Below are positions 3,049-29,082 of a stretch of DNA of 29,101 nucleotides, one piece after another. This DNA comes from a virus. The translations under genes were made by a program, and so were the position numbers. The first letter of the stretch is position 1. Every line of letters begins with the position of its first letter. The DNA lies in IMG/VR virus record IMGVR_UViG_3300004369_000101, positions 1 to 29,101 of that record; one strand, given 5' to 3'. The notes beneath the pieces were generated by a model. The model worked only from the letters and a program-made list of their open reading frames with translations, did no database searches and was not told the DNA's origin.

Positions 3049-3384
3049 TTATCTGTTATGGTACTCGATTCTTCCTTCATTATCATATACTTCGACCCCA
3101 ATATAAAAGTCAGGATCTCCATCAGAGTTGCGTGGAAAATTATCAACAGCGTATGCTCTAGCATCATCTAGAGTATCAAATGAGATGAAAATATATTCAT
3201 TATTCAAGAGTCCTTGCATCACATCAGAGGACAATAGCATTCTGTATGTGCCATAAACTTCATCTCTCTTCGCTTCGTCCGTGATTGCTCGTGGACCGAT
3301 ATTACGAACGAAAACAGTAGGTCTTCTCCTCCATTGGATTGCCTGCTCAATGATTTCTTGAAATTCGTATACCTGATAGTTCAT
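3049..3384 (-). CDS. Small hypothetical protein (111 aa)
   Basis: This 111-residue protein is unrecognised. It begins with a helix followed by a basic WRRRPTVFVRN segment, and later has YIFISFDTLDDARAYAVDNF, a strand then helix. The C-terminus is acidic and polar. No catalytic motif, signal peptide or membrane span is visible. Its ATG overlaps the upstream oxygenase stop by four bases (ATGA, 3384-3381), and the next gene starts 2 bases after its stop, so it is clearly part of the coupled operon. It could be a small accessory or chaperone-like protein; that is inference from position only. Confidence 0.75.
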   Translation of the reverse strand: MNYQVYEFQEIIEQAIQWRRRPTVFVRNIGPRAITDEAKRDEVYGTYRMLLSSDVMQGLLNNEYIFISFDTLDDARAYAVDNFPRNSDGDPDFYIGVEVYDNEGRIEYHNR

Positions 3385-3899
3385 TTTACTTTAATGAAGA
3401 GCTTCCATGCGATTGTTATTCTTAGTCCAGCAAATGTTCTTGAAGTTTCTTCTGCCCAATGTGGTATTGCACCAGGAAATATAATTGCTTTATTTGGTTC
3501 AGGAACAACATAACGATATTCATTTCCAAGTTTAAAAGCAGTCTTGCCATTCCACTCAGGATTCCAAGATTCAACTGGATAATATAATAGAGTTCTGCAA
3601 CTCTCATCAAATCCATCTTGATGAATACTGCCTCTCATGCCATAAGTTTGACCGTTTGCGTATACACGCTCAAGATCATATCCAATGCCAGTATTTTCTT
3701 CAATCTTATTTAGGAGATAGTTAGTAAAGAACTTATCATCATTCAGAGGCATCTGCCAAAATGGAGGAAGTCCCTGACTTTGTTTTGGATGACTGACATG
3801 ACCCCAATACCACGGTTTATTGCTTATAGATCTTGTGATTGATAAGAAATCTGTAGGACTAAAAAAGTTTTGGTATTCTACAATGTCAGAAAGTTGCAT
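3381..3899 (-). CDS. Putative 2OG-Fe(II) oxygenase, HxD type (172 aa)
   Basis: This compact oxygenase has all the core residues. RVYANGQTYGMRGSIHQDG carries H93 and D95, LLYYP and WNPEWNGKTAF form the next strands, IIFPGAIPHWAEE carries H147, and R160 in GLRITIAWK is the likely 2-oxoglutarate anchor. The arrangement resembles P4Hc/2OG-FeII_Oxy_3 proteins of marine T4-like phages, where a YANGQ-type element precedes the HxD. The start overlaps the end of the preceding oxygenase gene by 14 bases, with GAGA just before the ATG as a weak ribosome site. It is predicted cytoplasmic; substrate unknown. Confidence 0.87.
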   Translation of the reverse strand: MQLSDIVEYQNFFSPTDFLSITRSISNKPWYWGHVSHPKQSQGLPPFWQMPLNDDKFFTNYLLNKIEENTGIGYDLERVYANGQTYGMRGSIHQDGFDESCRTLLYYPVESWNPEWNGKTAFKLGNEYRYVVPEPNKAIIFPGAIPHWAEETSRTFAGLRITIAWKLFIKVK

Positions 3900-4530
3900 G
3901 TTCTCTAATCAAGTTTTGACGAATGGTTTCAAATTTCCATTTCAATGGATGGTCATGATCAAGTTCAGAAAGAACACGAGAGAAATCAGTGAGTATATCT
4001 CGAACTTTACCATTATCAATCATAGAGCAGAACCACCATGTAACTACATTTCGTTCGCCACTAATAACTGGTTTAACTCTATGTTGAAGTCCCGTGTGAT
4101 AAATTACTCCTCTACCTGCTTCAAGTTTATATTCTCTGACAGAATCCCCAACCTTAATTTCTAACTCGCCACCTTCATACTCATCAGGTTCGCTAAGAAA
4201 TACAGTTATACTATAATCTGTCTTGATACCATCCATAATCCACATATCATTATGCCAATCATAATGCATCCCTTCTTTATATCTAAGGAAGTTTGGATGT
4301 GTATGACCCCGAGGCATGAAATAATAATTAAATCCCTGATTTTCAGAGATATACTTATTCATCAAGGAAACCATTGTTGGATAATGAACTTGATCCAACA
4401 ATTGTTCATTATATTTGAGTTCTCGCTTTGAAGATCCAGACCAAGATCCATCAGTAAACTCACAGAACTGATAGAAATCTAATATATTTTTCACAACCCC
4501 CTTGGGGAGCATATTATATTCATAAATCAT
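3886..4530 (-). CDS. Putative PKHD/P4H-type 2OG-Fe(II) oxygenase
   Basis: The 214-residue protein has a classic prolyl-hydroxylase-like core. FLRYKEGMHYDWHNDMW carries H93 and D95, and FLSEPDEYEGGELEI (111-125) forms the typical GGEL strand. IYHTGLQHRVKPV carries H150, and R160 in GERNVVTWW is the predicted 2-oxoglutarate ligand. The FLSEPDEYEGGELE block closely matches LSSPDEYEGGELE in the oxygenase at 28414-29007, so the two are probably paralogues. After the core a helical C-terminal extension of about 45 residues is present. GAAGAG lies shortly before the ATG, and the gap to the upstream gene is 3 bases. An active hydroxylase is likely; the substrate is unknown. Confidence 0.9.
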   Translation of the reverse strand: MIYEYNMLPKGVVKNILDFYQFCEFTDGSWSGSSKRELKYNEQLLDQVHYPTMVSLMNKYISENQGFNYYFMPRGHTHPNFLRYKEGMHYDWHNDMWIMDGIKTDYSITVFLSEPDEYEGGELEIKVGDSVREYKLEAGRGVIYHTGLQHRVKPVISGERNVVTWWFCSMIDNGKVRDILTDFSRVLSELDHDHPLKWKFETIRQNLIREHATF

Positions 4531-4533
4531 AAA

Positions 4534-5481
4534 TTACTCTTCAGCAACAAACTTCTCGTAGTTTAGTCCCTCGTATACTGTTTCTAGACGCAGTTGTTTT
4601 GCTAAGTCTAGCACTTTTTTCTCAATAGGTCTAGTATTAGCATCATATGTCTCCAAGAACTGAATCAAGTTCAATTGTGTCTTACCAACAAAATCTTTTG
4701 CCACTTGGAAATCATACTTTTTAAACTGATCATCCGTCGATAGATATTCGACATCACGATTAGGATACATTTCTAGATAAACTCTAGGATCAATAGGATA
4801 CTTGAGTGTTTGTACAAACTTGAACATCTCAAAGTTATCTGCAAATTCTTCTCTTGGATTATCTGGCAACAATGTTCTTAGTTTCTGTCTCCATGTGATC
4901 CATAAATCTCTTTCACCATCAAACTTTTGTGGTGCATCTGGCAATACTCTAAAATCAGAATATAGTAGAAGTTTTTGGATTTCATCCATTTTCTTATACC
5001 ACTTGCTATCATAATAATAGTCAAGTGCTTCAAGATTCAGTTTTCTTACTTCTTCTAACAGGGTTGCTTCTTTTGCTTCTTTCTGGATAATAGCAACTGT
5101 ACGAATTGTCTCATAGATTGTTTTCACATCAGAGACATTTCCTTTCTTGTAAGTATACTCTACCCACCTTGTTGAATTTGTATCAAACTCATATCTAATT
5201 TTCTTTCTGAAACAAAGATATGTGTCATCACTATAAAGGACCAACATTTTAATTTCATCCTTGCCAGGATCATGCCACTCAGCAGAAATAGCGGGAAGAA
5301 CAATATCTGTCCATGCTTTTTCATCGACAAATGTAGTTCTTCCTCCCTCTGCAACATTACCGAGAGTGACTGCCTTTTCGGCAAAATTCAACTCCATGAC
5401 AGACTCTCTAGGTCTAATGGTATTTGACCAAAATTCCCTAATCTCGTCGTCCGTTGGTTTTTGATAGAAGTATTCTGCCAT
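4534..5481 (-). CDS. Hypothetical protein (315 aa), possible fibre-assembly chaperone
   Basis: I cannot assign this protein firmly. The N-terminal half looks beta-rich. Residues about 130-175 are probably helical, with many Lys and Glu. The C-terminal half includes ERDLWITWRQKLRTLLPDNP, which resembles the W-x-x-(Y/W)R-x-x-LR element of phage tail-fibre assembly chaperones (Tfa / Phage_tail_APC type). That resemblance, and the location just after the collar and adhesin genes, suggest a role in folding or attaching fibres. The similarity is short and could be chance. The ATG follows the preceding stop by 1 base. No signal peptide or membrane segment is seen. Confidence 0.7.
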   Translation of the reverse strand: MAEYFYQKPTDDEIREFWSNTIRPRESVMELNFAEKAVTLGNVAEGGRTTFVDEKAWTDIVLPAISAEWHDPGKDEIKMLVLYSDDTYLCFRKKIRYEFDTNSTRWVEYTYKKGNVSDVKTIYETIRTVAIIQKEAKEATLLEEVRKLNLEALDYYYDSKWYKKMDEIQKLLLYSDFRVLPDAPQKFDGERDLWITWRQKLRTLLPDNPREEFADNFEMFKFVQTLKYPIDPRVYLEMYPNRDVEYLSTDDQFKKYDFQVAKDFVGKTQLNLIQFLETYDANTRPIEKKVLDLAKQLRLETVYEGLNYEKFVAEE

Positions 5482-5482
5482 T

Positions 5483-6139
5483 TTAATTTGGAACCTTAAT
5501 GTACCATCCTGTCAAAATGTATTTATCTTGAGTGAACACCGTATTGCCTTTATGCACATGTGTCATACCTGCTGGCCAAACAACTACAGTTCCTACAGTA
5601 GGTCTGATTCTCCTTCTTTGATAAAGAAATTCAGTCTCTGCTTCACCTTCAGGCATATCATTCAGATAAATTGCCCAAACAAGTTCTCTTGCGTGATGAC
5701 CAAATCCTGCACTTTCATAGTGCCAAACATGATAACCGCCGCCTGGTTTTGTCTTCTGCATCTTAGAATCTTCAGACACATACTTACCATGCCTCAGTTG
5801 ATCATACTTTTGAACATAATGTTGAACACATGCTGTAAGATATTGATTGATTTCATAATTTAAATTAGGATCTGAATAATTCATAAGGATAGATTCATCT
5901 TTTCTACCCAAAGATCCTTGTGGAAACTGGTTAGTTCCATCCATGACACCACCCATGGTAGCATCATCTCCTCCTACCACAGACCCGTTAGCAACAACAT
6001 TCTCAAAATGTTTAATCATTGCATCACAACGAGATTTTGGCATGAAATTTTCCCACACACCAATAAAGTCCGTAAAGTCAGACTTAGTAATATTAGGATC
6101 GTCCATTAATTCCATCGGACGAATCGGTTGTGCTCCCAT
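5483..6139 (-). CDS. Putative 2OG-Fe(II) oxygenase with HxE motif
   Basis: This 218-residue protein has the pattern of a phage oxygenase family: QKTKPGGGYHVWHYE (about 128-142), VWAIYLNDMPEGEAETEFL (154-172), VVWPAGMTHVHKGN (187-199), then KYILTGWYI at the end. The probable metal ligands are H140, E142 (Glu instead of Asp) and H194 or H196. K206 sits where an Arg usually binds 2-oxoglutarate. HxE facial triads are known in AsnO and clavaminate synthase, so activity is plausible. It is the first gene after the last collar protein and has one of the few good ribosome sites in the operon, suggesting strong independent initiation at the head of the oxygenase block. Confidence 0.85.
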   Translation of the reverse strand: MGAQPIRPMELMDDPNITKSDFTDFIGVWENFMPKSRCDAMIKHFENVVANGSVVGGDDATMGGVMDGTNQFPQGSLGRKDESILMNYSDPNLNYEINQYLTACVQHYVQKYDQLRHGKYVSEDSKMQKTKPGGGYHVWHYESAGFGHHARELVWAIYLNDMPEGEAETEFLYQRRRIRPTVGTVVVWPAGMTHVHKGNTVFTQDKYILTGWYIKVPN

Positions 6140-6145
6140 AATCTA

Positions 6146-6149
6146 CCTC
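6146..6149 (-). promoter_or_regulatory. Ribosome binding site GAGG for the HxE oxygenase
   Basis: The minus strand reads TGAGGT overlapping the TGA stop of the collar gene. GAGG lies six bases before the ATG at 6139. It supports this start and is one of the clearer Shine-Dalgarno sites in the operon. Confidence 0.7.
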
Positions 6150-7815
6150 AATATGCTTTAATAATATACTTGACTCGATGATATTTAGTCAATAGTGGAA
6201 CAGTGGTTTCTGGTACAAGAGATGGTGTAGGTACAACTGTCTTTGATAAGTTTAACTCAAATGATGGTTCATTTGCAGCAATAGCAAGATCTGTTTGAGA
6301 AAAATTAATAGTAGTTGTATTGTTAGTTGCCATGCCACCAGCAGCAGTGCCACCACCATTCGCATTTCCATATCCATAAACATTCTCTGCATCACCAAAA
6401 TCCGTCTGCTGCAGATAGTGTGTATGCGTCACCAATGTTCCTGGGTTATAGACAATCATATTACCCTGAACTTCGTTTACACCAATACCAGCAGATGCAT
6501 TACCACCGCTAGGAAGTCCAGGAATGTTATTTTGCACATCTCCCGCCCAATAGTTGTTGAAGGTGAAGTTAAGTTCTCCACCAGGAGATACTACAGTATT
6601 ATAACCGATACTTGAGTATGTTGATGAACCAATTTCACCTGTACCGATTTGATAAAATGCTGGTGTTGCCCATGCAACATAACCAACACCAATCTGATCT
6701 ACGGTTGCGGTAATAACATCATGAGTATGTTGTGCTGGAATAGTTGGTGTGCCACCCAATGGTCCAATTGCCGCAGATAAATTACCAACGATATTAAACT
6801 CAGTTTGACCACCGATACCATCAATACCAGTTGTAGTAAGAGAACCTAGTTTAAAGAATTTACCCTCAGTATTTGTAGTAAATTCATCAGTTACAGTAAG
6901 AATTCTAAAGAACTGAGTAAGGGAGATGGTCCCACCACCAGGAGCAGCAGATGGGAATGTAATACCCATTGTATCACCAACTGTGTATCCTTCGCCAGGA
7001 TTTAATACAGAGATAACTTTAAATCTAGAATCACCAACAGTAACTCCATCATCTTCATATTGTGCTTCTGCTCTGATTCTTACCTCAAATCCTGTTCCAG
7101 ATCCACCAGAAACCGAAATGTCTGCTTCTTGGAAATCATTAACAGTGTTCCAATAGTTTTGAACACCACCCTCATCTCTTTGTACCCATTCACCAATTGC
7201 TTTAGTCACATATCCATTCGTTGGAATATCTTCATTCTGCCATAACTGAAATCCAACAATCTGTCCATCTGGTTCAGTAATGCCTGGGTATACTTGTTCG
7301 TCAGGTGGATTACCAACAGCATCAATCTTTTTAATAAACCAGTTTCCACCACTAGATCCTACAGTAGTAGAGTCTCCACTAGCACCTTGTGTAATATCTG
7401 GACCTTTATATGTAATAATAGATGGTGAAGATGGAGAGTTTCCATCTACATTTCCAATACCAAATAATTTTCTGTTGTGATAATTTGGTAACCTAAAATT
7501 TCCAGAATATGTTTTGGTATTGCCAGTCTGAGATACTGTTGCAGTACCACCATATTTCGCGCCAATAGCATCAAATAGATCTGGAAATTCAGTGGCATCA
7601 ACTGTTCTACCATCGCATTCAATCCATCCAGGAAATCTAGATGTAAGAGTTCCATCGAGAGTACCCCAGTTACCTGTCTTATCCCTAAAGATAGACATAA
7701 CTGTTCCGATGGTCATTCCATCTAATTTAGGATTTCTCTGACTGTACCAATGCCCGAACTGCACATTGTCAGCACTAGCATATGTAGATACAGACCAAGT
7801 AGTAGTATACGCCAT
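6148..7815 (-). CDS. Phage tail collar protein (555 aa)
   Basis: The N-terminal part holds a Phage Tail Collar domain (PF07484): GWIECDGRTVDATEFPDLFD near residues 63-82, then FRLPNYHNRKLFG near 107-119. Such domains occur in T4 gp12-like short fibres and other fibre tips. The rest is a long Gly/Thr/Asn-rich beta-structured region. HTHD near residue 362 and HTHY near 463 are HxH motifs of the kind that bind metal in trimeric T4 fibre proteins. The C-terminus YIIKAY resembles the ends of the two other collar proteins (YIIKF, YLIRAY). Its ATG shares one base with the adhesin stop (TAATG). It is a probable baseplate or fibre-tip component made late in infection. Confidence 0.88.
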   Translation of the reverse strand: MAYTTTWSVSTYASADNVQFGHWYSQRNPKLDGMTIGTVMSIFRDKTGNWGTLDGTLTSRFPGWIECDGRTVDATEFPDLFDAIGAKYGGTATVSQTGNTKTYSGNFRLPNYHNRKLFGIGNVDGNSPSSPSIITYKGPDITQGASGDSTTVGSSGGNWFIKKIDAVGNPPDEQVYPGITEPDGQIVGFQLWQNEDIPTNGYVTKAIGEWVQRDEGGVQNYWNTVNDFQEADISVSGGSGTGFEVRIRAEAQYEDDGVTVGDSRFKVISVLNPGEGYTVGDTMGITFPSAAPGGGTISLTQFFRILTVTDEFTTNTEGKFFKLGSLTTTGIDGIGGQTEFNIVGNLSAAIGPLGGTPTIPAQHTHDVITATVDQIGVGYVAWATPAFYQIGTGEIGSSTYSSIGYNTVVSPGGELNFTFNNYWAGDVQNNIPGLPSGGNASAGIGVNEVQGNMIVYNPGTLVTHTHYLQQTDFGDAENVYGYGNANGGGTAAGGMATNNTTTINFSQTDLAIAANEPSFELNLSKTVVPTPSLVPETTVPLLTKYHRVKYIIKAY

Positions 7816-9248
7816 TATGGACCAACTGTGATTGACATGCTTCCTGTTTGACTGAGACCATTGGGTGTAAGTATTCTTAAACGCAATGTCTCACCGTTAT
7901 TTATTTGACCGCTGGTAACCCAACCACCATTTCCAACTTTAAAATTACCACCAGTTACAGTAATATTTGCTGCAGCAGTAAGACCTTGAACAAGAACAGT
8001 ATTGCTGTATACAAATGTGTTTGGTGCTTGATTGGTTTGATTAATAAAATAGAAAGCATCTGGAATCTGGTCACCATCTGTAGTAGTGATAACTTTCCAA
8101 ACATCAGTAAGAGTTCCAATAGTAACATCTACTTCTACTTCACCGCCATAATCAGGACTAGAAGTAACTCTCAGTTGGACAGAATCATTTACATTAATAT
8201 TTCCACTGGTTTGCCATGCACCAGTGCCTACTCTAAACTCTGCTCCACCAGTTAGTGTTACTGGTGTAGGAACATTGATGCCACCAATGACCTGAGGTAA
8301 ACTCTCAGTCATTGTGTTAGCAGTTGCACCAACAACATTAACAAAGTCAAAATAATCTGGATCTTGATCAGCAGTTGCAACATTAGTTACATTCCAACTC
8401 TTATTAGGACTATCTCCAACAGTTATCGTTGTTCCAACAGTTTCTCCCAAGTTACCGCTAGTCAACACCCTTAATTTTAAAACCTCTCCATTATTAATAA
8501 CTTTCTGTGCTGTGCTATAAGCACTACCATTAACCGAAGATTCAAAACCATTTGTAGGAGAAGAAACTAGAACTGGAACTGTAATACCAGTAATTGTAAT
8601 TTCATTACTCTCAACATATGTACTGGTTGGAGCATCTAGAACATTCTCAAATTCAAATGCATTGGGAAACTGCCCTGGTTCACTAATAGTAGTAATTGAC
8701 CATGTGGCAACCGTTAATCCAATAGTTACTGTGCTAGTTTTCTGACTTGTATATGATCCAGAAGATTCCATTCTAACTTGAACAGTGTCTCCGTTTTCAA
8801 CGATCTGAACATTTTGACTAAATGCTCCACCATTGACAGAAATGAAAGCACCATTAGATGCAGATGCATTTACAGGAACTTGAATACCAGTAATAGTTGC
8901 CTCATTACTGAGATAATTTGTAGAAATATCAGCGTCAAAAATACTATCAAATGTAAAAATATCTGGAATATTATCTGGTGCTAAAACATTTACAGTAACT
9001 GCTCTTTGTGAAAATACACCAGCGTTACTTACAGTCATTGTATATGTGGTTGTGGAAGAAGGAGCAGTAATTGTATATGTCTGTCCATCACCAACATTAA
9101 CTTCACCAATGCCATTATCAATTTCAGCAAATGATGCTGTTTCTACCCCATTAAAGAATGTGCTCCATGATAATATTACAGGATCTCCCTCATATGCATC
9201 TGTAGTTGGAGAATCATCATTTGCTCTAAAATATTGAACTGACGGTGG
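7815..9248 (-). repeat. Ig-like domain plus four-repeat block, copy in the 1454-aa adhesin
   Basis: This encodes residues about 978-1454. It contains YFRANDDSPTTDAYEGDP, an Ig-like fold ending TTTYTMTVSNAG, then four repeats of about 96 residues. The repeats share the plan P-x-x-F-x-F ... ITGI..PV ... NG..LR.R..TSG ... T.TVG...W. It is homologous to the block at 12180-13622, unit by unit. Similar repeats occur in many bacterial surface proteins. Confidence 0.8.
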
Positions 9249-12179
9249 AACTGTGAAGGATAGAATTGCATATCCACTCGCAGTATTGGTACTTCCACCT
9301 TGGATTAACTCAAGTGCGTTATCATCATATCTAGATGTTCCTCCACCACCAGAAGAACCGCCAAAATTATTATCAACACCAGCGCCCCCGCCGCCGCCAC
9401 CTGAGTGACCGCCACCGCCGCCTCCACCACCGCCGCCGTCGCCACCAGCATTGGCACCAGCGCCACCATCAGCGTTATTGACATTTGTAGTAGCAGACCA
9501 AGATCCACCAGTTCCACCTGATCCAGAGCAACTGCGATTCCAAGATCCACCGCCTCCGCCTCCGCCGCCGCCACCAGCAGCAAACCAGCGTTGATTATCT
9601 GTGTCATAAATGCCAGATCCAGCGCCACCACCAGCACCAGATCCAGACCATCCACCACCTAAACTATCAGATCCACCGCCGCCGCCGTCCATGAATCCAG
9701 CAGCACCTGTACCACCTTGACCTCCAGGTTTTCCTCCAGGAGATCCAGATGCTCCATTATCACCTTGATTTCCAATTCTGAGAATTAAATTCCAATCATT
9801 TTGCCCAGCACCTGTTAATTTTACATAACCATTGCCAGAGTTAAAATTGTCTCCCTGAGATAAAACTCCAGCATTCTGTGAATACGCTAGATTGTAGTAA
9901 CCATTTCCTGTTTTACCACCAGTACCACCTTCACATGGTCCACCACCATCTCCAGGTAAATTTGTGGGAGTCCAACCACCACCAGCGCCGCCGCCACCGC
10001 CGCCTCCGCCGTTAGTTTGAGCATCACTACCATCCAATCCATCAGTTCTAGCACCTGTTGTATACAGAATGCCATTATCTTGACCGCCAGTTTGATTAAG
10101 TGTTCCACAAGCATCAACACCACCTGCACCACCTCCACCACCTGCTACAACTAATGTAGTGTTACCAATATGAATAGCACTAGATCCTCCACCGCCGCCG
10201 CCTCTCGTTCCTGTATTACCATCAACACTTAAATTAACGGGAGAAGTTGGTGCGTAAAACACATATCCAAACGCATTGTTTGTGGTGTCTAAAGTATATC
10301 CATTTGCATTTCCTTCCGTTGCATTAGAAGTCCACAAAACATCAGTTCCATTTGTTTTTGCATAAAAGAGAGTTGTTGCAATCTCAGTTACATCAATAAA
10401 GAATGGTGGTGTACCAGCTGGAGGGAAAGCATATGCAGTATATGTACTAGCTGGTTTGCCTGGTTCATTATCAGATATAGCAATTGTTCCTGGTGGTTGT
10501 GGATCAGTAAACACATTAGCAATCTGTCCCTCTAACGCATATCCAGTTGGAGGAGTAGCAGACAACCCAGTAAAATGATCTCCTGTTGTGCTATTAAAAT
10601 ACCTATACAATGGAACTGTAATATATGTACTACTAACTGTAGCACCTAATCCACCAGATCCACCATCATTGTAACCTTGACCAGGACTACCAAGATCAAT
10701 CGCAGAGTTACCAGCACCACCATTACCACCAACTTTAATTGATAAAGTTTGTCCAGCAATATTTGTTAAGACACCAGTGATTTTTTGTCCTAAATGACCA
10801 GTAGTAAATGCAGCGGTATCTCCTCCTTTACCACCTTGTATTTCATAGTTAAGTGTGTCTATATTAGCAGGAACTGCAACTGTAGTATCTTGATAAATTG
10901 TTTGATTTACAGATCCACCAGCGCCATATGGATTTCCAGCGCCATTATCATTTAGTCTAAATTGTCCTACTCTACCTGCACCACCAGGACAACCAGATCC
11001 GTTAGCATCAGATCCGCCACTACCACCTCTACCAGCAGCAATAGTTACAAATGCGTTGGTGGTTCCAGCAGGAACAAAAATTGTATGACTGCCAGTTCCA
11101 TATGTAGTAACAAATTCGTTAGTTAAACTATTTCCCTGAGGAACAACAGTAAGAGTAATGCTATCAGTTGTAACTCCACCAGGACCTTCGGCAACAAGTG
11201 TATAAATTGTTGTTGAAGTTGGAGAAACAGCAAGTGTTCCTGTAAATGCTACTGCTTGACCATTAATAGTAACAGATGTTGGTGCTGAAGCAGCATCTCC
11301 TGTAGCTGCCCACTCCAATGTAGCGCCAGTTCCATTAACAATAACAGCAGCAGGACTTACATTAAATTGAACTGTTGGTGGATCCCCAGTTTCATATGTC
11401 AACTCAAAAAATCCATCATTATCCCTGAATGCATTTGTTACAGTAGACGCATTGATAACGAAATTAGTGTCTCTATAACTTCCACCCTTCTGACCATGGT
11501 TACCACCAATATGATTTCCTTGAGCAACAGCAATACCACCAGAACCACCGTCATTATAATTGTTTCCGTTGTTTCCTCCACCACCGCCACCTGAACCAGC
11601 GTTAGCATTAATGTTTCCATTACCACCCGCTTGACCCGAGGAAGCATTTAGTGTAGTTCCAACAGTTCCAGGAGTTACAGCACTACCGTTTGGTTCTCTA
11701 TACTGAGAGTCCCACTGATCATAAGTAGCACCGCCTGCTCCACCACCGCCACCAGCAATAAGAACATATCCATTATCAATACTAACTGTCGTGGCAGAAC
11801 CTCCACCTGCTCCACCACCAGAGTTACAAATAACTTCGCCGCCAGGTTGTGTTCCACCTGCTCCACCATTAAATGAACCAGTTCCACCAGATGCAGCACC
11901 GTCGCTGCCAAAGTTGGTAGTTCCGTCGAAACCTTTTGTTCCAATAACAACAACTAATGTCTTACCAGAAACTGCTGAAGCACTAAATTCTCCAGTTATC
12001 CTTTCACCAGGACCACCGTCAATTTGAGCTCCAGGAGTAAAACCTTGGGAGATAACAACACCAGGACCAGTACCACCACCAGATGCACCACGAATCTCAT
12101 ATGTGAGAGATTTCACATTTGTTGGAAGATTTATATTATAAGTTCCCGCTGTATCGTATGTAACTGTCTGAATTGCCAT
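7815..12179 (-). CDS. Giant glycine-rich adhesin with Ig-like and repeat domains
   Basis: This 1454-residue protein is modular. Residues 1-260 are a glycine-rich beta domain starting TYDTAGTYNINLP; about 265-345 is an Ig-like domain (TSTTIYTLVAEGPGG). A short glycine-rich domain remnant starts near 350, and a second full copy near 430. A DUF5648-like insert occupies about 521-645 (VPLYRYFNSTTGDHF). More glycine-rich sequence with poly-Gly runs follows to about 975. A second Ig-like domain (978-1066) and four repeats of about 96 residues end the protein. The C-terminal part is homologous to that of the upstream gene. Glycine-rich loops recall T-even gp38-type adhesins, so host-receptor binding is likely. 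It starts directly after the previous stop (TAA ATG). Confidence 0.88.
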   Translation of the reverse strand: MAIQTVTYDTAGTYNINLPTNVKSLTYEIRGASGGGTGPGVVISQGFTPGAQIDGGPGERITGEFSASAVSGKTLVVVIGTKGFDGTTNFGSDGAASGGTGSFNGGAGGTQPGGEVICNSGGGAGGGSATTVSIDNGYVLIAGGGGGAGGATYDQWDSQYREPNGSAVTPGTVGTTLNASSGQAGGNGNINANAGSGGGGGGNNGNNYNDGGSGGIAVAQGNHIGGNHGQKGGSYRDTNFVINASTVTNAFRDNDGFFELTYETGDPPTVQFNVSPAAVIVNGTGATLEWAATGDAASAPTSVTINGQAVAFTGTLAVSPTSTTIYTLVAEGPGGVTTDSITLTVVPQGNSLTNEFVTTYGTGSHTIFVPAGTTNAFVTIAAGRGGSGGSDANGSGCPGGAGRVGQFRLNDNGAGNPYGAGGSVNQTIYQDTTVAVPANIDTLNYEIQGGKGGDTAAFTTGHLGQKITGVLTNIAGQTLSIKVGGNGGAGNSAIDLGSPGQGYNDGGSGGLGATVSSTYITVPLYRYFNSTTGDHFTGLSATPPTGYALEGQIANVFTDPQPPGTIAISDNEPGKPASTYTAYAFPPAGTPPFFIDVTEIATTLFYAKTNGTDVLWTSNATEGNANGYTLDTTNNAFGYVFYAPTSPVNLSVDGNTGTRGGGGGGSSAIHIGNTTLVVAGGGGGAGGVDACGTLNQTGGQDNGILYTTGARTDGLDGSDAQTNGGGGGGGGAGGGWTPTNLPGDGGGPCEGGTGGKTGNGYYNLAYSQNAGVLSQGDNFNSGNGYVKLTGAGQNDWNLILRIGNQGDNGASGSPGGKPGGQGGTGAAGFMDGGGGGSDSLGGGWSGSGAGGGAGSGIYDTDNQRWFAAGGGGGGGGGGSWNRSCSGSGGTGGSWSATTNVNNADGGAGANAGGDGGGGGGGGGGHSGGGGGGAGVDNNFGGSSGGGGTSRYDDNALELIQGGSTNTASGYAILSFTVPPSVQYFRANDDSPTTDAYEGDPVILSWSTFFNGVETASFAEIDNGIGEVNVGDGQTYTITAPSSTTTYTMTVSNAGVFSQRAVTVNVLAPDNIPDIFTFDSIFDADISTNYLSNEATITGIQVPVNASASNGAFISVNGGAFSQNVQIVENGDTVQVRMESSGSYTSQKTSTVTIGLTVATWSITTISEPGQFPNAFEFENVLDAPTSTYVESNEITITGITVPVLVSSPTNGFESSVNGSAYSTAQKVINNGEVLKLRVLTSGNLGETVGTTITVGDSPNKSWNVTNVATADQDPDYFDFVNVVGATANTMTESLPQVIGGINVPTPVTLTGGAEFRVGTGAWQTSGNINVNDSVQLRVTSSPDYGGEVEVDVTIGTLTDVWKVITTTDGDQIPDAFYFINQTNQAPNTFVYSNTVLVQGLTAAANITVTGGNFKVGNGGWVTSGQINNGETLRLRILTPNGLSQTGSMSITVGP
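9382..9450 (-). repeat. Poly-glycine low-complexity stretch
   Basis: GGC/GGT-rich coding for about 23 residues (about 911-933) of almost pure glycine, including a run of ten Gly, broken by single residues such as His-Ser. Local G+C is far above the surrounding gene. Similar shorter runs lie near 9550-9575, 9675-9690 and 9985-10010. The frame stays open throughout, so the tract is coding. Confidence 0.75.
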
Positions 12180-13622
12180 TTATCCGATCGTTATGCTTAG
12201 ATTAGAAGTAGTCGCCAATCCACCAGTTAAAATTCTAACTTTCATCTGGTCACCATTATTTACTTGTCCTGTTGCTGACCATCCACTCCACCCACTACCA
12301 GTGTTTTTTGCAAATTGACCACCAGTAACTGTTACATTAGATGGTGATGTAATTCCTTGAAGGACAACAACATTACTCTCAATATATGTATTAGGTGGTT
12401 GGTTGTCTCTATTTGAAAAATAGAAGGCATCAGGAGTAGTATCATTTGCTGTTGTAGTTGTCACCGTAAAGGTATCTGTCAAAGAACCAACAGTAACATC
12501 AGTTTCCACCACACCACCAGGATCTGCACTAGAAGTAATTCTAACTCTCAAATTCTGTCCATTGTTGATCGTAGTTCCAGTAGATCCAGCAACCCAACTA
12601 CCACTGCCAACTCTAATTTCAGCGCCATTTGTTGCTGTTACTTGAGTAGGAATATTAATACCATTAATTAAAACAGGATCACTTGTAATCACAGAACTGG
12701 CAGATGCATTATCGACATCAGTGAAGAAAAAATAGTTGGGATCAGTATCAGCAGTTCCCTGATTAGTAATATTCCAATCAACATTAGGACTACCACCAAC
12801 AGTAATAATTGTACTAGCAGTTTCTCCAGTATTGCCAGTTGTGGTATAACGCAATCTTAATGTTTGACCATTTGTAATAGTTTTTGCTGCAGTAGAGAAT
12901 GTGCCGCCATTCACAGAACTTTGAAATCCATTTGTAGGAGCAGAGACAGCAACAGATTGCGTAATGCCAGTAATTGTTACCTGATTACTCGTAATAGTCG
13001 TATTCAAACCAGCATCTGAAACATCATTAAAGTCAAATGTATTTGGAATCTGAGCAGGTTCTGTTTGGGTTGTGATGGTCCATGTTGCGGATGCGCTACC
13101 GACCTGAACCGTAGTTGTTTTTGCAGTGTTATACTGTCCAGATGAAACCATTCTAACTCTCAATGTCTGTCCATTAGAAATAGTTTTATTTGCGGTACTA
13201 AAAGTACCACCATTTACAGATGTTTGTGCTCCATTGGATGCTTGAACAGTAACACTAGTCTCAATACCACTAATAGTAGAAGTATTGCTTGTATATGTTG
13301 TGCTCAATGCAGCATTCTGAACACTGTCAAAAGTAAAAAGATCAGGATCACTGTCAGGAAGATCCATCTCTACTGTGACACTAGAACTCAAAGACCCTGT
13401 GGGACCCTGAACTGTTAATGTGTATGTGGTCTCAGTAGTTGGACCTGGGTTTAATGTAATAGAACCATTTCCAATTGGAGAGATATCGCCAACTCCTTGA
13501 TTAATTGAACCACTAGTTGCACCAGCAAATGATCCTAATAGTGTGTTCCATGATAAAGTGACTGGATCGCCAGGAGAAATTAAAGTGGTTGAAGAATCAT
13601 CATTTGCTCTGAAGTATGTGAT
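12180..13622 (-). repeat. Ig-like domain plus four-repeat block, copy in the 681-aa adhesin
   Basis: This encodes residues about 202-681 with TYFRANDDSSTTLISPGDP, an Ig-like domain ending TTETTYTLTVQGPTG, then four repeats. Repeat order matches that of the downstream gene: for example SGQYNTAKTTTVQVGSASATW here against SGSYTSQKTSTVTIGLTVATW there, and the last units both begin PDAFYF. Confidence 0.8.
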
Positions 13623-14225
13623 AGTTGTAGGAACCGTACCATAGATTCTAATTCTAGAAACAGCATACCTATCACCAGCATTCTGATTATTAGCAAATAC
13701 ACCGCCAGCACCTTGGAATTCAGGAGCAGATGCTGCCATAAAAATTTGCCAGAGAAAATTTCCTCTATTATTGGCAGGAATATTAACTTGTCGTGTGATC
13801 CATCCAGGACCACCTTCTACTCCAGGATATGGTCCATATCCAGCACCACCAGCAACCAACTGCTGTGTAGTTGTAGTTCCTCCCGTCGTACATTTAATCT
13901 TAAGTCCTTCATTAGCATCATTTGGTCTTTCTCCACCATTAAAGTCATCACCTGTAATAAGGTCGATGATCATATATTCCATATTAGTGGTATTCAAAGC
14001 AAACTGAGCAATTCTATTACCCACAAATAGGGTACTATTAAAAGTTCCCAAACTTAGATGTTTGGTTCCTACATTATTAATAAATCCGCCAAGTTCTCCA
14101 GTTCCAGCAGCACCAGAAACTCCATATCCACTATCATAAATGGCACATCCATTTAAATAATCATTGACTCCAGTGAAATCAAATCCAGCACTTCCTGGTC
14201 GTAAATCGTAAATTAAATCTGCCAT
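12180..14225 (-). CDS. Adhesin-like structural protein with Ig-like and repeat domains
   Basis: In this 681-residue protein, residues 1-200 form an N-terminal domain I do not recognise. It has hydrophobic strands (FVGNRIAQFALNTTNMEYMI) and Gly-rich loops (VAGGAGYGPYPGVEGGPG), and ends RIRIYGTVPTT. It looks like a carbohydrate- or surface-binding beta-sandwich, but that is a guess. Residues 202-295 are Ig-like and about 295-681 hold four repeats of about 96 residues. The C-terminal 480 residues are homologous to the end of the next gene, so the two proteins share a common stalk with different heads. The ATG lies 2 bases after the collar gene stop. Probable virion surface or fibre protein. Confidence 0.87.
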   Translation of the reverse strand: MADLIYDLRPGSAGFDFTGVNDYLNGCAIYDSGYGVSGAAGTGELGGFINNVGTKHLSLGTFNSTLFVGNRIAQFALNTTNMEYMIIDLITGDDFNGGERPNDANEGLKIKCTTGGTTTTQQLVAGGAGYGPYPGVEGGPGWITRQVNIPANNRGNFLWQIFMAASAPEFQGAGGVFANNQNAGDRYAVSRIRIYGTVPTTITYFRANDDSSTTLISPGDPVTLSWNTLLGSFAGATSGSINQGVGDISPIGNGSITLNPGPTTETTYTLTVQGPTGSLSSSVTVEMDLPDSDPDLFTFDSVQNAALSTTYTSNTSTISGIETSVTVQASNGAQTSVNGGTFSTANKTISNGQTLRVRMVSSGQYNTAKTTTVQVGSASATWTITTQTEPAQIPNTFDFNDVSDAGLNTTITSNQVTITGITQSVAVSAPTNGFQSSVNGGTFSTAAKTITNGQTLRLRYTTTGNTGETASTIITVGGSPNVDWNITNQGTADTDPNYFFFTDVDNASASSVITSDPVLINGINIPTQVTATNGAEIRVGSGSWVAGSTGTTINNGQNLRVRITSSADPGGVVETDVTVGSLTDTFTVTTTTANDTTPDAFYFSNRDNQPPNTYIESNVVVLQGITSPSNVTVTGGQFAKNTGSGWSGWSATGQVNNGDQMKVRILTGGLATTSNLSITIG

Positions 14226-14227
14226 CT

Positions 14228-15100
14228 TTAGAATTTAATAATATATTCAACTAGAATAAATGGTTGGACTGATTCTGCGAGAGTATCAATAGTTTTAGTT
14301 TGAACAGTCAATGTTGTTTGCAAATTATCTACTGGAACATTGAATGTTGGGTACGAATAAACAAAATTTTGTGAATAATCTGGAGAAGTAGGCCACTGAA
14401 TATTATGTAGATGGTTTGCAGCAGCATCGTTGGTAGGATTACCAGAACCAATAATACTATTTCCAGCAAATGGTGTCAGATCGGTTCCACTCTTTCCTTC
14501 AGCACCAACTTTAAAGTTACCAGTGTAGTTTAACACTTTAGCATTGGTTTGGTGACCATGTGCTTGGAAAGAAGATGCATCCAAAAATGTTTCTTGTGTC
14601 TGAATATCTTCGTTTGGTGGGGTAAATCTAGCATTACCCTGCATTGGAATGTCGGTTTGACCAACAACAGTAAAGTTTCCACTATATCCAATAGTAAAAC
14701 TATTTGCCTGTGAAGTAACTACTACCTCAGCACCAACTCTAGGTTTACCAGAAAAATTTTCAGTAACACTTTGAGCAACCACCATACTTTGATATGTGCC
14801 AGATGCTAGTCCAGGACTCAAATACTTTGCTCCAATATCTGGAACTTGGAATTGATCATCAGCAAGTGTTTGATTTTCTTTTTTAAACTTACAGGCACCA
14901 CCTGTTCCCAAAATAGCAGCAAGTTCTGGATAATCTCCAGCAGTGTATACTTTACCATCACAACGCAAAAATCCTGCGGGAATTTTTTGTCTCCACGATG
15001 GATCCGTAGGATCGCCTTGGAGTGGCAAATCACTAGTAAAAATTTGAATAGCGCCTACAACTCCGCCGTATTTTCCTCTTTCTCTTGCGTAATTTGCCAT
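14228..15100 (-). CDS. Phage tail collar protein (290 aa)
   Basis: The probable start is the second in-frame ATG (15100), giving MANYARERGKYGG. It overlaps the preceding stop by one base (TAATG), while a longer start at 15127 would overlap the upstream gene by 28 bases. The protein holds a tail collar domain: IPAGFLRCDGKVYTAGDYPE near residues 40-59, then a strand FQVPDIG near 83-89. HGH (near 181) and HLH (near 231) are HxH motifs. The end YIIKF matches the termini of the other collar proteins. It is likely a short-fibre or fibre-tip component. The substrate or receptor is unknown. Confidence 0.87.
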   Translation of the reverse strand: MANYARERGKYGGVVGAIQIFTSDLPLQGDPTDPSWRQKIPAGFLRCDGKVYTAGDYPELAAILGTGGACKFKKENQTLADDQFQVPDIGAKYLSPGLASGTYQSMVVAQSVTENFSGKPRVGAEVVVTSQANSFTIGYSGNFTVVGQTDIPMQGNARFTPPNEDIQTQETFLDASSFQAHGHQTNAKVLNYTGNFKVGAEGKSGTDLTPFAGNSIIGSGNPTNDAAANHLHNIQWPTSPDYSQNFVYSYPTFNVPVDNLQTTLTVQTKTIDTLAESVQPFILVEYIIKF

Positions 15101-16323
15101 TAGTATGCTCGAATTAAGTACAAACAAATAAGGGTTGGTGTTGGAACTGCCACATCCAAACGAAATGCCTTGTCAATATTTTCTGGAGTGACATTTGAGA
15201 TAGCAGTAGTATTGGTGGTAGTTGGAACCCTCAGATTTGCCTTATCAAATTGAACTTCAAATGGTTCGTGGTTGTGTGGTTGAATAACTACCTGCTGACC
15301 AGCAATAGAAGTGTTTTGGTTGAAACTAATAGCATTACTATCATACAGTGCTTTATTCCAAGAATCGGTAGTGCTATTTGCTCCACCTGGGTCAAAGTTT
15401 CTATTGCCAACTGTTTGAGTACCTCCACCAGGAGTGTATGCTAAAGTATCACCCTGCTGAAACTCTTCGTCCATTGTATTGCTAGCAGTAGTGTTTGGAA
15501 CCTGATATGGTCCAAACCAGTTAGAGATTGGAGATCCAACAACATTAAATGGTTTCAAGTTGAATGTTGGGTTCTCACCCTGAACATTAGCAATCACAAC
15601 ACCAGCAGCACCGCCACCAAATCCTTGGTCATTCGTGTACTGAATACTCAACTGCGCCTGAACCTGAGAATAGTCAAGTTGGTCAAAACTAGATCGAGCA
15701 ATACGATAATTAATTTCACCCCATGCAGTAACACCTTGTCCAGGTCGAGTTCCCGAAGAAGGAAGATACATTGTATCAAATGTAGTCGGGTGACTGTGAA
15801 TGGTAATATGTTTTCTTCCTAACTTTCGTTGAGACATATAAACTGTCTTGGAACCAAAAGTATCATTAAGCTGAGATCCAGTTAATTTACCAGTGAAGTC
15901 ACTCTCAGGTGTATAAGCAAAATTGATGTCCGTATATGCTCCATAATCAGTACCAACACCATTGTCAATGTCAGTTCCAATTAAATTTGCTTGGTTTACT
16001 GGATCAACTAGAGCAGCGAGTGCTTCAGTTGTATCAATAGTGTTACTACCATCAAAGTATGAAGAATCAAGATCAACTAATGCTCTCTGATTGATATTAG
16101 GGAGAGCAATTGATCCAGTATAGTTTGGAAATGTGCCAGATAAATTTGTTCCGCCGTAGTTATCTCCAATTACTTGAGCAAGTAATGGGAAATCATCTGC
16201 TTGCAGTGTCTGTCCATTGCAGATCAACCATCCAGGAGGGATGCCCGTCAAGTCGCCGCCCCATGGCATGATGGTGCCAATGGCGGCGGCTTTCATTGTC
16301 TTAAGTGTTCCGTAAGTTGCCAT
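15100..16323 (-). CDS. Phage tail collar protein (407 aa)
   Basis: The N-terminal collar domain is clear: GTIMPWGGDLTGIPPGWLIC near residues 16-35, then QTLQADDFPLLAQVIGDNYGG and LPNINQRALVDL. IHSHP near 176 and PHNHEPF near 351 give two HxH motifs. The C-terminus YLIRAY resembles the other two collar genes. The start lies 9 bases after the giant gene and lacks a strong Shine-Dalgarno site, so translation probably depends on reinitiation. Together with the two other collar proteins this suggests a set of related, probably trimeric receptor-contacting tips. It is a paralogue, not a duplicate: only the N-terminal fold and the ends are shared. Confidence 0.9.
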   Translation of the reverse strand: MATYGTLKTMKAAAIGTIMPWGGDLTGIPPGWLICNGQTLQADDFPLLAQVIGDNYGGTNLSGTFPNYTGSIALPNINQRALVDLDSSYFDGSNTIDTTEALAALVDPVNQANLIGTDIDNGVGTDYGAYTDINFAYTPESDFTGKLTGSQLNDTFGSKTVYMSQRKLGRKHITIHSHPTTFDTMYLPSSGTRPGQGVTAWGEINYRIARSSFDQLDYSQVQAQLSIQYTNDQGFGGGAAGVVIANVQGENPTFNLKPFNVVGSPISNWFGPYQVPNTTASNTMDEEFQQGDTLAYTPGGGTQTVGNRNFDPGGANSTTDSWNKALYDSNAISFNQNTSIAGQQVVIQPHNHEPFEVQFDKANLRVPTTTNTTAISNVTPENIDKAFRLDVAVPTPTLICLYLIRAY

Positions 16324-16332
16324 CTGTTTTTA

Positions 16333-19300
16333 TCAAATTTCCATTAACCACCAACCTTGTAGGTTGCTTGGAACGCCAGTAGCGGTTCCGTCTGCGTTCG
16401 TTGCTCCAGAGTAAACTAGACCAAACGATGCATTAGGTGTAGTAACAATTAGTTCGCCACCGTCATAATTAGTAAAGTCAACACTACTAATACTTAGGTC
16501 AGTATTGGTAGAGTCTCCTGCAACAGGAATGCCGTCAGGTGCTCTAATAATCATTCTGATATTATAAGTCAAAGCGCCGCCAATATCAACAAATCTAATC
16601 ATATCTCCAGTAGATGCATTAGCAGGCAACTTAAGAACGAGGTCAGAAGATGCTTTGACGAAGTAGTTAACATTAGCAGTTAAGACTCCACCATCACCAG
16701 ATACTGTAGATTGATAGATCCACTTTCTAGCACCAGTCTGACTGATGTAATCAGTGATACCACCAAGATCAATTCCACCATCATTATTTACCTTGAATCT
16801 TGTAGTCGATCCGCTGTTAACTGTTAAGTCACCACCATTGAGTTGAACATCACCTGCAAATAGGTTTGTTCCCGTTCCCTCAGTTTCAATGACACCAGCA
16901 ATAGTTAGGTTGCCATTACCGTTGATGAATTCAAGTTTCTTGGTGGTTCCAGCATTATCAAAGATGTCAATCGAACCACCTCTCATGGTGATATTTCCAA
17001 GATCACCATCAATTTCAAACTCTTGGAAGTTTGCACCAACTCTTAAATCACCAAGGATTCTGGTGTCACCATCAGAACTGTCAACATCAAATACAGTGAT
17101 AGGAGTAGAAGCGCCATTTGTGATGGTGAACATCTTATCATTATTTGATGTGCTACCAGTTAGAGTAATATCGTTTCTAACTTCGGTTGGACCTTCGATT
17201 GTCGTCTGACCTGTAGTAGAGAGAACCTCAAATACAGTGAAGGCAGTTGGTTCAGCACCATCATTGATGCGTAGACCCTGAATGTTTGCTGCATCAGTGC
17301 TTACCGCAGTAACATTGAACAATTCGATATCATTCAATCTGATGATATCATTGATATTGATGCTACCACCAAACTCAGCAGTTGTGATAGTTACCGAATC
17401 TCCTTGGGTTCCAGCAGATGGAATTGCATTGGTCAGATAACTTACATTGTTTTGCTTATTGAGTTTAACAATTTCGACATTATCTGGGTGATCAGTTCTG
17501 AGTGTTGTTCCTTCCTGTGCTCTTGAAACTTCAACTCTATAACCCTCAGAATCTGCAGCATTGGTGCCATTAATAATAGATTCGACTCTAACAATTTCAG
17601 AGTTTGCTTGGTTGCTACCACCAATTGTTGTAGATCTATCAATTAAGAGTAGATCACCAATAGCGATATCAGTAACACCAATTGCCTCATTGACTGGTAA
17701 GAAATATGTAGAAGATCCGTATAGGAAGGTGCTTCCACCCCAGAGAGAATTACCTTGTGAGTCAATTGTCTTACCAATCTCAACTCTTCTGTAGATATCA
17801 ATGTTGAGATTATCAGTTGCACCAACAGCATGTGATGAAGTAGATGTACTAAAGACACCTCTAGTTGCTGTGATAATACCAACAGATAAACCACCATTTA
17901 GTGTGATATTGCCGTCAACTTCCTCACTTGCCTTAACATATAGACTGTTATTGATGGTTGTTGTTCCTGCATCAGCACCAATGCTGAGGATAGAACCTGT
18001 ACGGCAAAGATCAATCTCGTTAGAACCACCAGATGCACTGAACAACTCCAGTCTTGGAGTGAATGAATACATCTTAGTGATACCAGTAGAAGGAGTACCG
18101 AACTGAATATCACCATCTGCCTTGAATAGTCTGTTTCTGACATTGAAGAGTGAGGATGTATTCTGGAAAGCACCACCCATGAGGATAGTAGACTGATAAG
18201 CAGCACTAGAGTTGGATACTGTACCAATATCGATAACAGAATTCTGTGAATTGCTGTGTAGATATAGTTGAGTTTGAGTTGCAGCAGATCCAATTGTGAT
18301 TGTTTGATTTGCTGTGTTATTACCAAGATTAATTTGTTGAGCTGCTGTTGCAGTGTTTGCAACATTCAAGGTAGTTGCTTCTGGGAATAGATTAATCGTG
18401 GTGCTTGTAGGACCAAGGTTGAAAGTTCCAGAAGGACTTTCAATTGTTCCGTTAGTCAATGTTAAAGTATTGGAGAATCTTACTTCACCATCAACAACAA
18501 ATGTCTTATCGAGAAGTGTATTGTTGTTGGCAATATTAATTCCAACTCTATTCGTAAGAGTATTGACTCTTAGAAGTGCTGTTGCATCAGGTGAATCTCG
18601 GAAGTAACCAACCAAGAATGCATTTGCTTGTGCTGTCTCTGTTCTATTGACTAGTGTGCCAGCAGATTCATCCAACCAAGATAGAACTTTCTTACCACTA
18701 ATCCAAGTAGTACCAACAACATCCAAGTTTGCTTTTGGATCTGTGTCAGCGGAAACAAATGCTGTTTCATATGCACTGTGTGCAGCAGCGGCAATAGTGT
18801 TAACACCTAACTTATAATCACCGATACTCTCGGTTGCTGTTCTCAGTGCTTCACCACCAATGATTCCAGTCTCTTTCCAGTTTGCGGAAGAGAAGTCCAT
18901 TGTAGGAGCAGGAGTTCCACCATTGATAGGTGTTCCAGCTCTTTGGACAAGGTTTGCCCATGTTGGATTGGAAACAGGATTATCAACAACACCGTCGCCA
19001 TCATTATCATAGGATACTGCAGCAATCGACTCACCAATTTGAATATAGCAGTAAGTGTCAGCTGGAGCAAATTGATATGTAATTCCCTGAATTGTTGGAG
19101 AAACGATCGGGAATCCTCCATTAGAATTCAGAGCACCGTTTGGATAGAAGTTATCAATTCTAATTCTAGAAGTTTCTCTGATTCCGATGGTTGCATTGGT
19201 CTGTTGTACAGAGTTAACAATGTTCCAGTTGATCTTGACATATACTGTTCCATTGAACTGGACAGAAGCAATAGAATCTGCAGCAATATTGCTGTAGTAG

Positions 19301-28413: not shown

Positions 28414-29007
28414 TTATTTAAATGAAGGTCCATTCATCCACGCAACTAATGATATTCGCTTTCCAGCAGTAACTGGGTTAACTTTATGTGGTAACCAAGC
28501 AGGAAAAATAACTGCAGAACCTCTTTCTGGTTTTACAGATTTGCTCCACCTACCAATAGAAAATTCTAGTTCGCCACCTTCATATTCATCTGGACTACTC
28601 AATACCAAAGAACAAGACAATTTTCTTTCGATTAAAATGCCATCCGACCTTCTAGGTGCAGTAACTGAAGTTCCATTGTCGGTATGCCAATCATAAAAAT
28701 CTTTTCTATCACCACTATAGACTGTTGCTTGGATTGGTTGATCAAAATATTCGAGATCATACAAAAAGTATTCTCTATTTGCTGATATCATCATATTATG
28801 AATAATACCACTAATCCACTCATCCCAGTTTATCCATGTATTTTTTGATGATCGTATATTGTCTCCCGTATTTGTTCCATCAATAGCAGAATCTAACATA
28901 ATATTAGATCTTTCATCAATATACTCAATGATAGAGTCGATCAAACCATCAGACAATTTAGTTGGTGTTGTATAAACTGTCTTATCTGTAAATGCAAAAC
29001 TATTCAT
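28414..29007 (-). CDS. Putative PKHD/P4H-type 2OG-Fe(II) oxygenase, first of the window
   Basis: The start at 29007 (MNSFAFTDKT) is chosen because a longer in-frame reading to 29055 would translate the tRNA-Asn gene. The protein has 197 residues. The core has FYDWHTDNG with H108 and D110, LSSPDEYEGGELEF, VIFPAWLPHKVNPV with H174, and R184 in GKRISLVAW. This is a complete facial triad plus 2-oxoglutarate Arg. It is the probable paralogue of the gene at 3886-4530. The ATG follows the tRNA by two bases and uses a Shine-Dalgarno inside the tRNA. It stands upstream of the late promoter, separate from the main oxygenase block. Confidence 0.9.
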   Translation of the reverse strand: MNSFAFTDKTVYTTPTKLSDGLIDSIIEYIDERSNIMLDSAIDGTNTGDNIRSSKNTWINWDEWISGIIHNMMISANREYFLYDLEYFDQPIQATVYSGDRKDFYDWHTDNGTSVTAPRRSDGILIERKLSCSLVLSSPDEYEGGELEFSIGRWSKSVKPERGSAVIFPAWLPHKVNPVTAGKRISLVAWMNGPSFK

Positions 29008-29009
29008 AA

Positions 29010-29082
29010 CTCCTCCACCTGGGCTCGAACCAGGGACATAGTGATTAACAGTCACTCGCTCTACCGACTGAGCTATAGAGGA
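29010..29082 (-). tRNA. tRNA-Asn (anticodon GTT)
   Basis: A complete 73-base cloverleaf can be folded by eye. The acceptor stem is TCCTCTA/TGGAGGA with one T-G pair. The D-arm is GCTC/GAGC, and the anticodon stem is AGTGA/TCACT with loop CTGTTAA. The anticodon GTT is at 29049-29047, the variable loop is ATGTC, and the T-arm is CCTGG-TTCGAGC-CCAGG. The discriminator is G and CCA is not encoded. Phage tRNAs of this kind are usual in cyanophage genomes and may support translation of Asn-rich late proteins in a host of different codon use. Confidence 0.95.
29012..29016 (-). promoter_or_regulatory. Shine-Dalgarno GGAGG located inside the tRNA acceptor stem
   Basis: The minus strand reads AGGTGGAGGAGTTATG. 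GGAGG lies 4 bases before the ATG at 29007 and forms part of the 3' acceptor strand of the tRNA. It supports the chosen start of the oxygenase. Spacing is a little short. Confidence 0.65.

Follow-up and report, generated by a model that had tools for sequence, protein, structure and literature searches.

The stretch analysed here (the window: virus record IMGVR_UViG_3300004369_000101, 29,101 bases, from an ocean cyanobacterial virus) encodes two adjacent proteins, A and B, with homologous C-terminal stalks and unrelated N-terminal heads, followed directly by a tail-collar protein, C (Table 1). The last stalk repeat of both A and B lacks one strand, and a strand that would complete it opens the next gene. 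It is probable that the two proteins dock by completing a split immunoglobulin (Ig)-like repeat on one shared fibre protein. The complementarity of the partial repeats is a result read from the sequences; the binding is what we infer from it. The virus appears to be a T4-like marine cyanophage, with A and B as its tandem host-contact proteins (adhesins). Its nearest named relative is Synechococcus phage Sf-CH1b, which aligns to 98% of the first 25 kb at 82% nucleotide identity and has an identical gene order.

The stalks of A and B consist of one Ig-like domain followed by four repeats of about 98 residues (R1 to R4), in the same order in both proteins. A 197-681 and B 976-1453 are 51% identical (SEG-filtered BLASTP, E value 6e-114), and the heads (A 1-199, B 1-978) give no match with an E value below 3. 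The pair thus combines a conserved C-terminus with differing heads, as the preliminary description of this DNA had claimed for the two proteins. That description would have been contradicted by generic repeat similarity, with units closer within than between proteins. Identity between counterparts is 39% for the Ig-like domain and 54%, 59%, 52% and 55% for R1 to R4, compared with 26-52% between units inside one protein (R1 and R2 of A reach 52%, equal to the weakest A/B cross pair). In a repeat tree (FastTree), R1 to R4 of A each group with the repeat of the same number in B, and of the 24 possible pairings the colinear one scores highest (summed identity 220, runner-up 188). Generic repeat similarity was rejected on these grounds. 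Foldseek and VIA-align matches of the stalk are generic Ig/Fn3 rods and are uninformative on function. Nucleotide similarity of the A and B repeats is weak (58-65%) and identical residues are encoded by identical codons in 43-66% of cases per repeat, compared with 45% expected. Synonymous sites are therefore near saturation and the duplication is old.

The joint between the stalk and C was located with a hidden Markov model (HMM) of the complete repeat, which has 100 positions. R1 to R3 of A and B cover positions 1-99 and R4 only 1-86. The same truncation of R4 is found in the adhesins of all relatives with a complete end, including those of a third type, M. The absent piece is the final strand, of pattern W-x-I/V-T-T. 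In the AlphaFold2 (AF2) model of A, this strand is formed in R1, R2 and R3 but not in R4, where the model ends at strand 677-680; R4 also lacks its first strand in this model. Protein C starts with MAYTTTWSVSTYAS and its relatives with M[AS]Y[NT]T[TS]W[ST]V[ST]TY. This is the arrangement of a split Ig domain, in which the acceptor lacks one strand and the partner carries it at its terminus.

The family of short tail fibres phrog_4924 matches C in its collar part (E value 6e-72) and A and B in their repeats (1e-32 and 1e-30). Repeats followed by a collar in one protein, as in that family, do not occur in the window, where the repeats lie on A and B and the collar on C. The Pfam Collar domain (PF07484) is recognised in C (E value 7e-10, 39.1 bits against a gathering cut-off of 24); A and B have no Pfam match, even at an E value of 0.1. 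In canonical fibres, where repeats and collar are fused, the stretch equivalent to the start of C forms the closing strand of the final repeat. On an HMM of such fused fibres, four adhesins of window-type relatives (L025_B, L026_A, L026_B and L031_M) stop at position 204 and the C proteins enter at 212 or 213 from their own residue 5 or 6 with E values near 1e-50 (window C from 212, 2.7e-50). An AF2 model of the fused fibre forms strand 213-220 as the final strand of the last repeat, with a predicted local distance difference test score (pLDDT) of about 80-84. That R4 is just a shorter repeat is not favoured, since the absent piece opens C and fused fibres hold it at that point. The cassette has two further collar proteins (407 and 290 residues), whose N-termini carry no such strand, and docking on them was rejected. 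Being incomplete and complementary to the N-terminus of C, R4 names a probable attachment site. The suggestion in the preliminary description that A and B assemble on the same site through their shared part probably holds to this extent, although the shared part is more than a stalk. In Sf-CH1b, genes 30-32 are the same three genes (80-82% identity), with the same truncated R4 and the same N-terminal strand in gene 32; B has 1466 residues and there is no essential difference.

A related joint exists throughout the Kyanoviridae (marine T4-like cyanophages), in which one to six tandem 'virion structural proteins' per genome precede a 'short tail fibre' gene (two in ACG-2014j, three in S-PM2 and Syn1, six in S-CAM3). 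As in the window, these genes (S-PM2 223-226, Syn1 035-038, S-CAM3 229-234; T4-GC 737-740) encode a conserved C-terminus and a variable head, form a tandem run immediately ahead of the collar-fibre gene and have partial repeats at the joint. The two types differ in the point of division. In canonical members the repeats lie in the fibre and the split is mid-repeat, whereas in the window lineage they lie in the adhesins and the split falls before the last strand. Most relatives are canonical: their adhesins end in the first half of a repeat (terminal plug ...LSDPIxVTDIDIPVEIKSxxPIQV...) and the downstream fibre opens with the second half (M..YSF...PLYVxEGQxxxFRY...IGxxxxFWxIxT). In window A and B the C-terminus falls at repeat position 86 and has a different sequence; they lack the half-repeat plug (DIDIPVEIK...) and represent a variant form.

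In profile comparisons, the plug (25 adhesin C-termini) aligned to repeat columns 3-63 (E value 1e-4) and eight fibre N-termini to columns 53-102 (1e-8); the controls gave 0.08 for the block ahead of the plug and 0.13 for the collar region. In a survey of 80 loci, 114 of 116 adhesins match the plug profile to within 0-2 residues of their end, and the partial repeat opens the fibre, at its residue 1, in 74 of 75 cases. The exceptions to the terminal position of the plug are one adhesin each in L101 and L104, with 11 further residues beyond it. No partial repeat was found in the collar fibres of four genomes without adhesins (S-H9-1, S-RSM4, S-WAM2 and S-MbCM7), and S-CAM1, with three adhesins, has both repeat halves. 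The second half of the window-type R1 scores 22.5 bits against the profile of canonical fibre N-termini, compared with 3.5-7.0 for R2-R4. R1 can be read as a Rosetta-stone fusion of parts that other lineages keep apart, an arrangement to be expected if the two halves bind each other.

Variable heads on similar tails are likewise widespread. Neighbouring adhesins within one genome have about 250-340 C-terminal residues in common (36-72% identity) and differing heads. Of the pairs that can be formed among the 109 canonical adhesins collected, 265 reach a tail identity of 60% or more; in 98 of them, no significant match between the heads extends over half the length of the shorter one. Canonical neighbours in three loci (L098, L077 and L078) have tails 86.8% identical and heads without a match over half the length. 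The heads were compared pairwise because Ig and glycine-rich segments join them and make single-linkage clustering uninformative. This pattern across canonical adhesins indicates that the organisation of A and B is a family-wide design.

Several observations count against docking through a split repeat. The survey query held a motif adjoining the fibre N-terminus and so favours fibres that have it. The match of the adhesin C-terminus to the repeat is only moderately significant, the two canonical partial repeats have some ten columns in common, and the first half of the window-type R1 is not top-scoring with the canonical plug. The fused-fibre model cannot be relied on in its collar part (pLDDT below 50). 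On the side of docking, plug similarity is higher within than between genomes (0.64 vs 0.47; preceding block 0.39 vs 0.34), and the plug follows the fibre N-terminus better than the preceding block does (partial r 0.40 vs 0.23), a co-variation that gives weak support because phylogeny is shared.

Joints inside repeats might instead be relics of gene fission or fusion, with partial repeats that no longer interact and adhesins attached elsewhere. Breakage and fusion are frequent in repeat proteins and the split point does vary between lineages. However, the same cut occurs in every paralogue (2-3 window-type, 1-6 canonical per genome) and is conserved to the last residue, where relics in non-partner paralogues would be expected to decay, and the complementary piece is absent where adhesins are absent. 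A relic is for these reasons unlikely. A reversed polarity, with N-terminal heads anchored to the virion and the repeats as the distal host-contact part, would agree with the N-terminal attachment usual for phage fibres. It is very improbable, as the N-termini are variable and unrelated between neighbours, the C-termini are conserved, and head A is similar to carbohydrate-binding and adhesion domains. A and B could also sit on separate fibres or serve as host-specific alternatives, never on one C trimer. Two further collar proteins in the same operon speak for this, but the missing strand opens C and neither of them, which leaves such a separation rather doubtful; homotypic A and B fibres would still be permitted with docking on C, making this a sub-case of the docking model.

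Under the docking model, C would most likely use its N-terminus to complete the last repeat of A or of B, as in a nicked Ig domain, comparable to the SpyTag split of CnaB. The shared C-terminal part probably leads both proteins to one site. In the window type the adhesin would bring every strand except the last, and the N-terminus of the collar fibre the rest; in the canonical type the adhesin would bring about five of eight strands and the fibre N-terminus the remainder. The same principle would hold family-wide with the split at another point, the fibre stalk having moved into the adhesins in the window lineage so that C keeps only the last strand. With a single fibre protein for several adhesin genes that end in a common plug, the heads would share or compete for one socket. 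If C is trimeric, as is T4 gp12, a fibre would carry three heads at most, either of one kind (A or B) or of both. The trimeric state of C, receptor binding and the presence of both heads on one virion are presumed in this scheme. More tentatively, and somewhat short of an even chance, the joints may form a family-wide split-Ig docking code, in which one fibre partial repeat receives one to six tandem adhesins with complementary ends and gives combinatorial heads, gained by head replacement.

The history of the heads was followed in relatives of the window. A scan of viral contigs gave 18 loci with the window-type stalk, of which the closer ones retain A and B. Four (L025, L026, L031 and L032) have three adhesins, of types A, M and B, on the same stalk. 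In the stalk tree, sequences group by position and not by genome, with support of 83/95 for A, 74/74 for B and 100/100 for M, which is moderate for A and B. This grouping argues against recent gene conversion. The A-, M- and B-type stalks are separate lineages common across phages, so the difference between A and B is old and stable, with no recent swap here. A recent tandem duplication or gene conversion in the window genome was rejected on these separate lineages and the near-saturated synonymous sites. Head replacement is seen at M. L025_M and L026_M are 64% identical from just ahead of the Ig domain to the end and their heads are without match; the L026 head is unrelated to the M heads of both L025 and L031, the remainder being 58-64% identical from the same point. 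The M-type adhesins show directly that heads have been replaced on a stalk that is orthologous. The tandem duplication followed by head exchange put forward in the preliminary description therefore stands as a duplication with different heads, and exchange is seen at M in relatives, without a recent swap in the window. The survey of related phages that it called for, for one stalk with other heads, found such cases at M and in canonical neighbours. A third arrangement occurs in L009 (Sf-FR1), where genes 22-28 encode adhesin-like proteins with internal full repeats and other C-termini, and the fibre (1853 residues) has repeats at its N-terminus and in its middle.

Head A looks like a jelly-roll of the MAM, reelin or carbohydrate-binding type, in a region of moderate model confidence. 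VIA-align matched it to reelin, MAM and a xyloglucan-binding protein (Z 8.7-10.2, root mean square deviation 3.0-3.8 Å over 126-146 residues). Residues 29-110 have distant relatives in PA14-domain proteins of S-MbCM6, Syn9 (gp220) and ACG-2014g (E values 1e-4 to 7e-3), which may share a domain of head A. In head B, the matches to Gly_rich_2, ALK_LTK_GRD and DUF5648 each score under the Pfam cut-off, and the Ig-like domain 267-350 matches canonical cyanophage adhesins. The DUF5648-like segment (10236-10622, minus strand; B 520-648) sits inside the second glycine-rich domain. A DUF5648 match also makes up much of the head of S-CAM3 232 (L014; E value 4e-11). Head modules seem to move between adhesins. 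That A and B act as receptor-binding proteins is suggested by their position, their variability and mutations in S-PM2d, where S-PM2d224, the fibre of the cassette, is among the genes mutated early in chemostat coexistence with the host (PMC9910659).

The cassette reads, in order, giant fibre, gp12-like collar, collar, adhesin(s), collar fibre, 2-oxoglutarate (2OG)-Fe(II) oxygenase and tail assembly chaperone. The gene order of the window agrees with that of S-PM2, ACG-2014e, Syn1 and Sf-CH1b, placing it with the Kyanoviridae cassette. The open reading frame of 299 residues at 14228-15127 (minus strand) begins at TTG and its relatives align only from residue 10; its true start is probably the ATG at 15100. 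At 12179-12182 the ATG of B directly follows the TAA of A in the same frame and readthrough would make an A-B fusion; this is probably merely tight translational coupling. Seven 2OG-Fe(II) oxygenase-like genes lie around the cassette (172-813, 1042-1623, 1623-2186, 3384-3899, 3889-4530, 5486-6139 and 28417-29055, minus strand). Two of them score under the Pfam cut-off, and most relatives also have oxygenases adjoining fibre genes. These enzymes might hydroxylate fibre or adhesin proteins.

Table 1 Position and basis of the cassette genes, adhesin domains and joint elements in the window
Feature	Position	Strand	Basis
Adhesin A, 681 residues: head, Ig-like domain, R1-R4	12180..14225	-	Exact open reading frame; AF2 mean pLDDT 82, stalk mostly 85-95
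Adhesin B, 1454 residues: glycine-rich multi-domain head, Ig-like domain, R1-R4	7815..12179	-	Exact open reading frame
Protein C, 555-residue tail-collar protein, proposed shared docking partner	6148..7815	-	PF07484, phrog_4924
Strand at the N-terminus of C (residues 5-12, TTWSVSTY), candidate final strand for R4 of A and B	7780..7803	-	
TAATG overlap of B stop and C start codons	7813..7817	-	Sequence; equally tight spacing in relatives
Head A, residues 1-199, jelly-roll-like beta sandwich	13629..14225	-	VIA-align of AF2 model
Ig-like domain of A, residues 200-290	13356..13628	-	39% identity to Ig-like domain of B
Complete repeats R1-R3 of A, residues 291-594	12444..13355	-	Repeat HMM 1-99; final strands 378-386, 482-488, 582-590
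Incomplete repeat R4 of A, residues 595-681, without final strand	12183..12443	-	HMM 1-86 of 100
Head B, residues 1-978: glycine-rich domains, Ig-like domain 267-350, DUF5648-like insert 520-648	9246..12179	-	
Ig-like domain of B, residues 979-1068	8976..9245	-	39% identity to Ig-like domain of A
Complete repeats R1-R3 of B, residues 1069-1369	8073..8975	-	Repeat HMM 1-99
Incomplete repeat R4 of B, residues 1370-1454, without final strand	7818..8072	-	HMM 1-86 of 100
Tail collar protein, 290 residues from likely ATG, conserved cassette member	14228..15100	-	N-terminus without strand
gp12-like collar protein, 407 residues, conserved cassette member	15100..16323	-	N-terminus without strand
Giant tail-fibre-like protein, 3975 residues, heads cassette, conserved in Kyanoviridae	16333-28260	-	
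Tail assembly chaperone homologue downstream of cassette	4534..5481	-	phrog_4697, E value 7e-55

Known systems resemble parts of this arrangement. The gp38 tip adhesins of T2- and S16-like phages are separate adhesins on a fibre, with a glycine-rich domain and a variable recognition part; they are mounted at the tip of gp37 and have neither tandem paralogues nor Ig repeats. They are likened to A and B by architecture, not by homology. In the donor-strand exchange of chaperone-usher pili, and in SpyTag/SpyCatcher, an Ig-like domain short of one strand is completed by another polypeptide. These systems are not homologous to A, B and C, and the parallel would be an analogy without a chaperone-usher pathway or an isopeptide bond. 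The branched fibres LtfA/LtfB of the T5-like phage DT57C place two receptor-binding proteins at one tail attachment point and broaden recognition; LtfB is reported to be attached through LtfA, and the parts of that report consulted describe no shared C-terminal plug or split repeat (PMC4728585). Several receptor-binding proteins on one site are thus already known from branched fibres, and mosaic adhesins are common. The new point would be the gene joints, at which the missing strand of R4 is encoded at the start of the next gene. Searches of open papers, an incomplete collection, turned up no donor-strand joint in fibres of phages or cyanophages and no split-repeat socket for tandem adhesins.

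In cyanomyoviruses, T4 tail-fibre genes such as g10, g11, g12, g34, g35 and g37 cannot be recognised, and which structural proteins take their place has been an open question (PMC2984593). The conserved cassette is a candidate host-recognition organ, and its tandem paralogues can be read as interchangeable heads. If this is true, the heads that fit a given fibre could be predicted from sequence across an abundant marine virus group.

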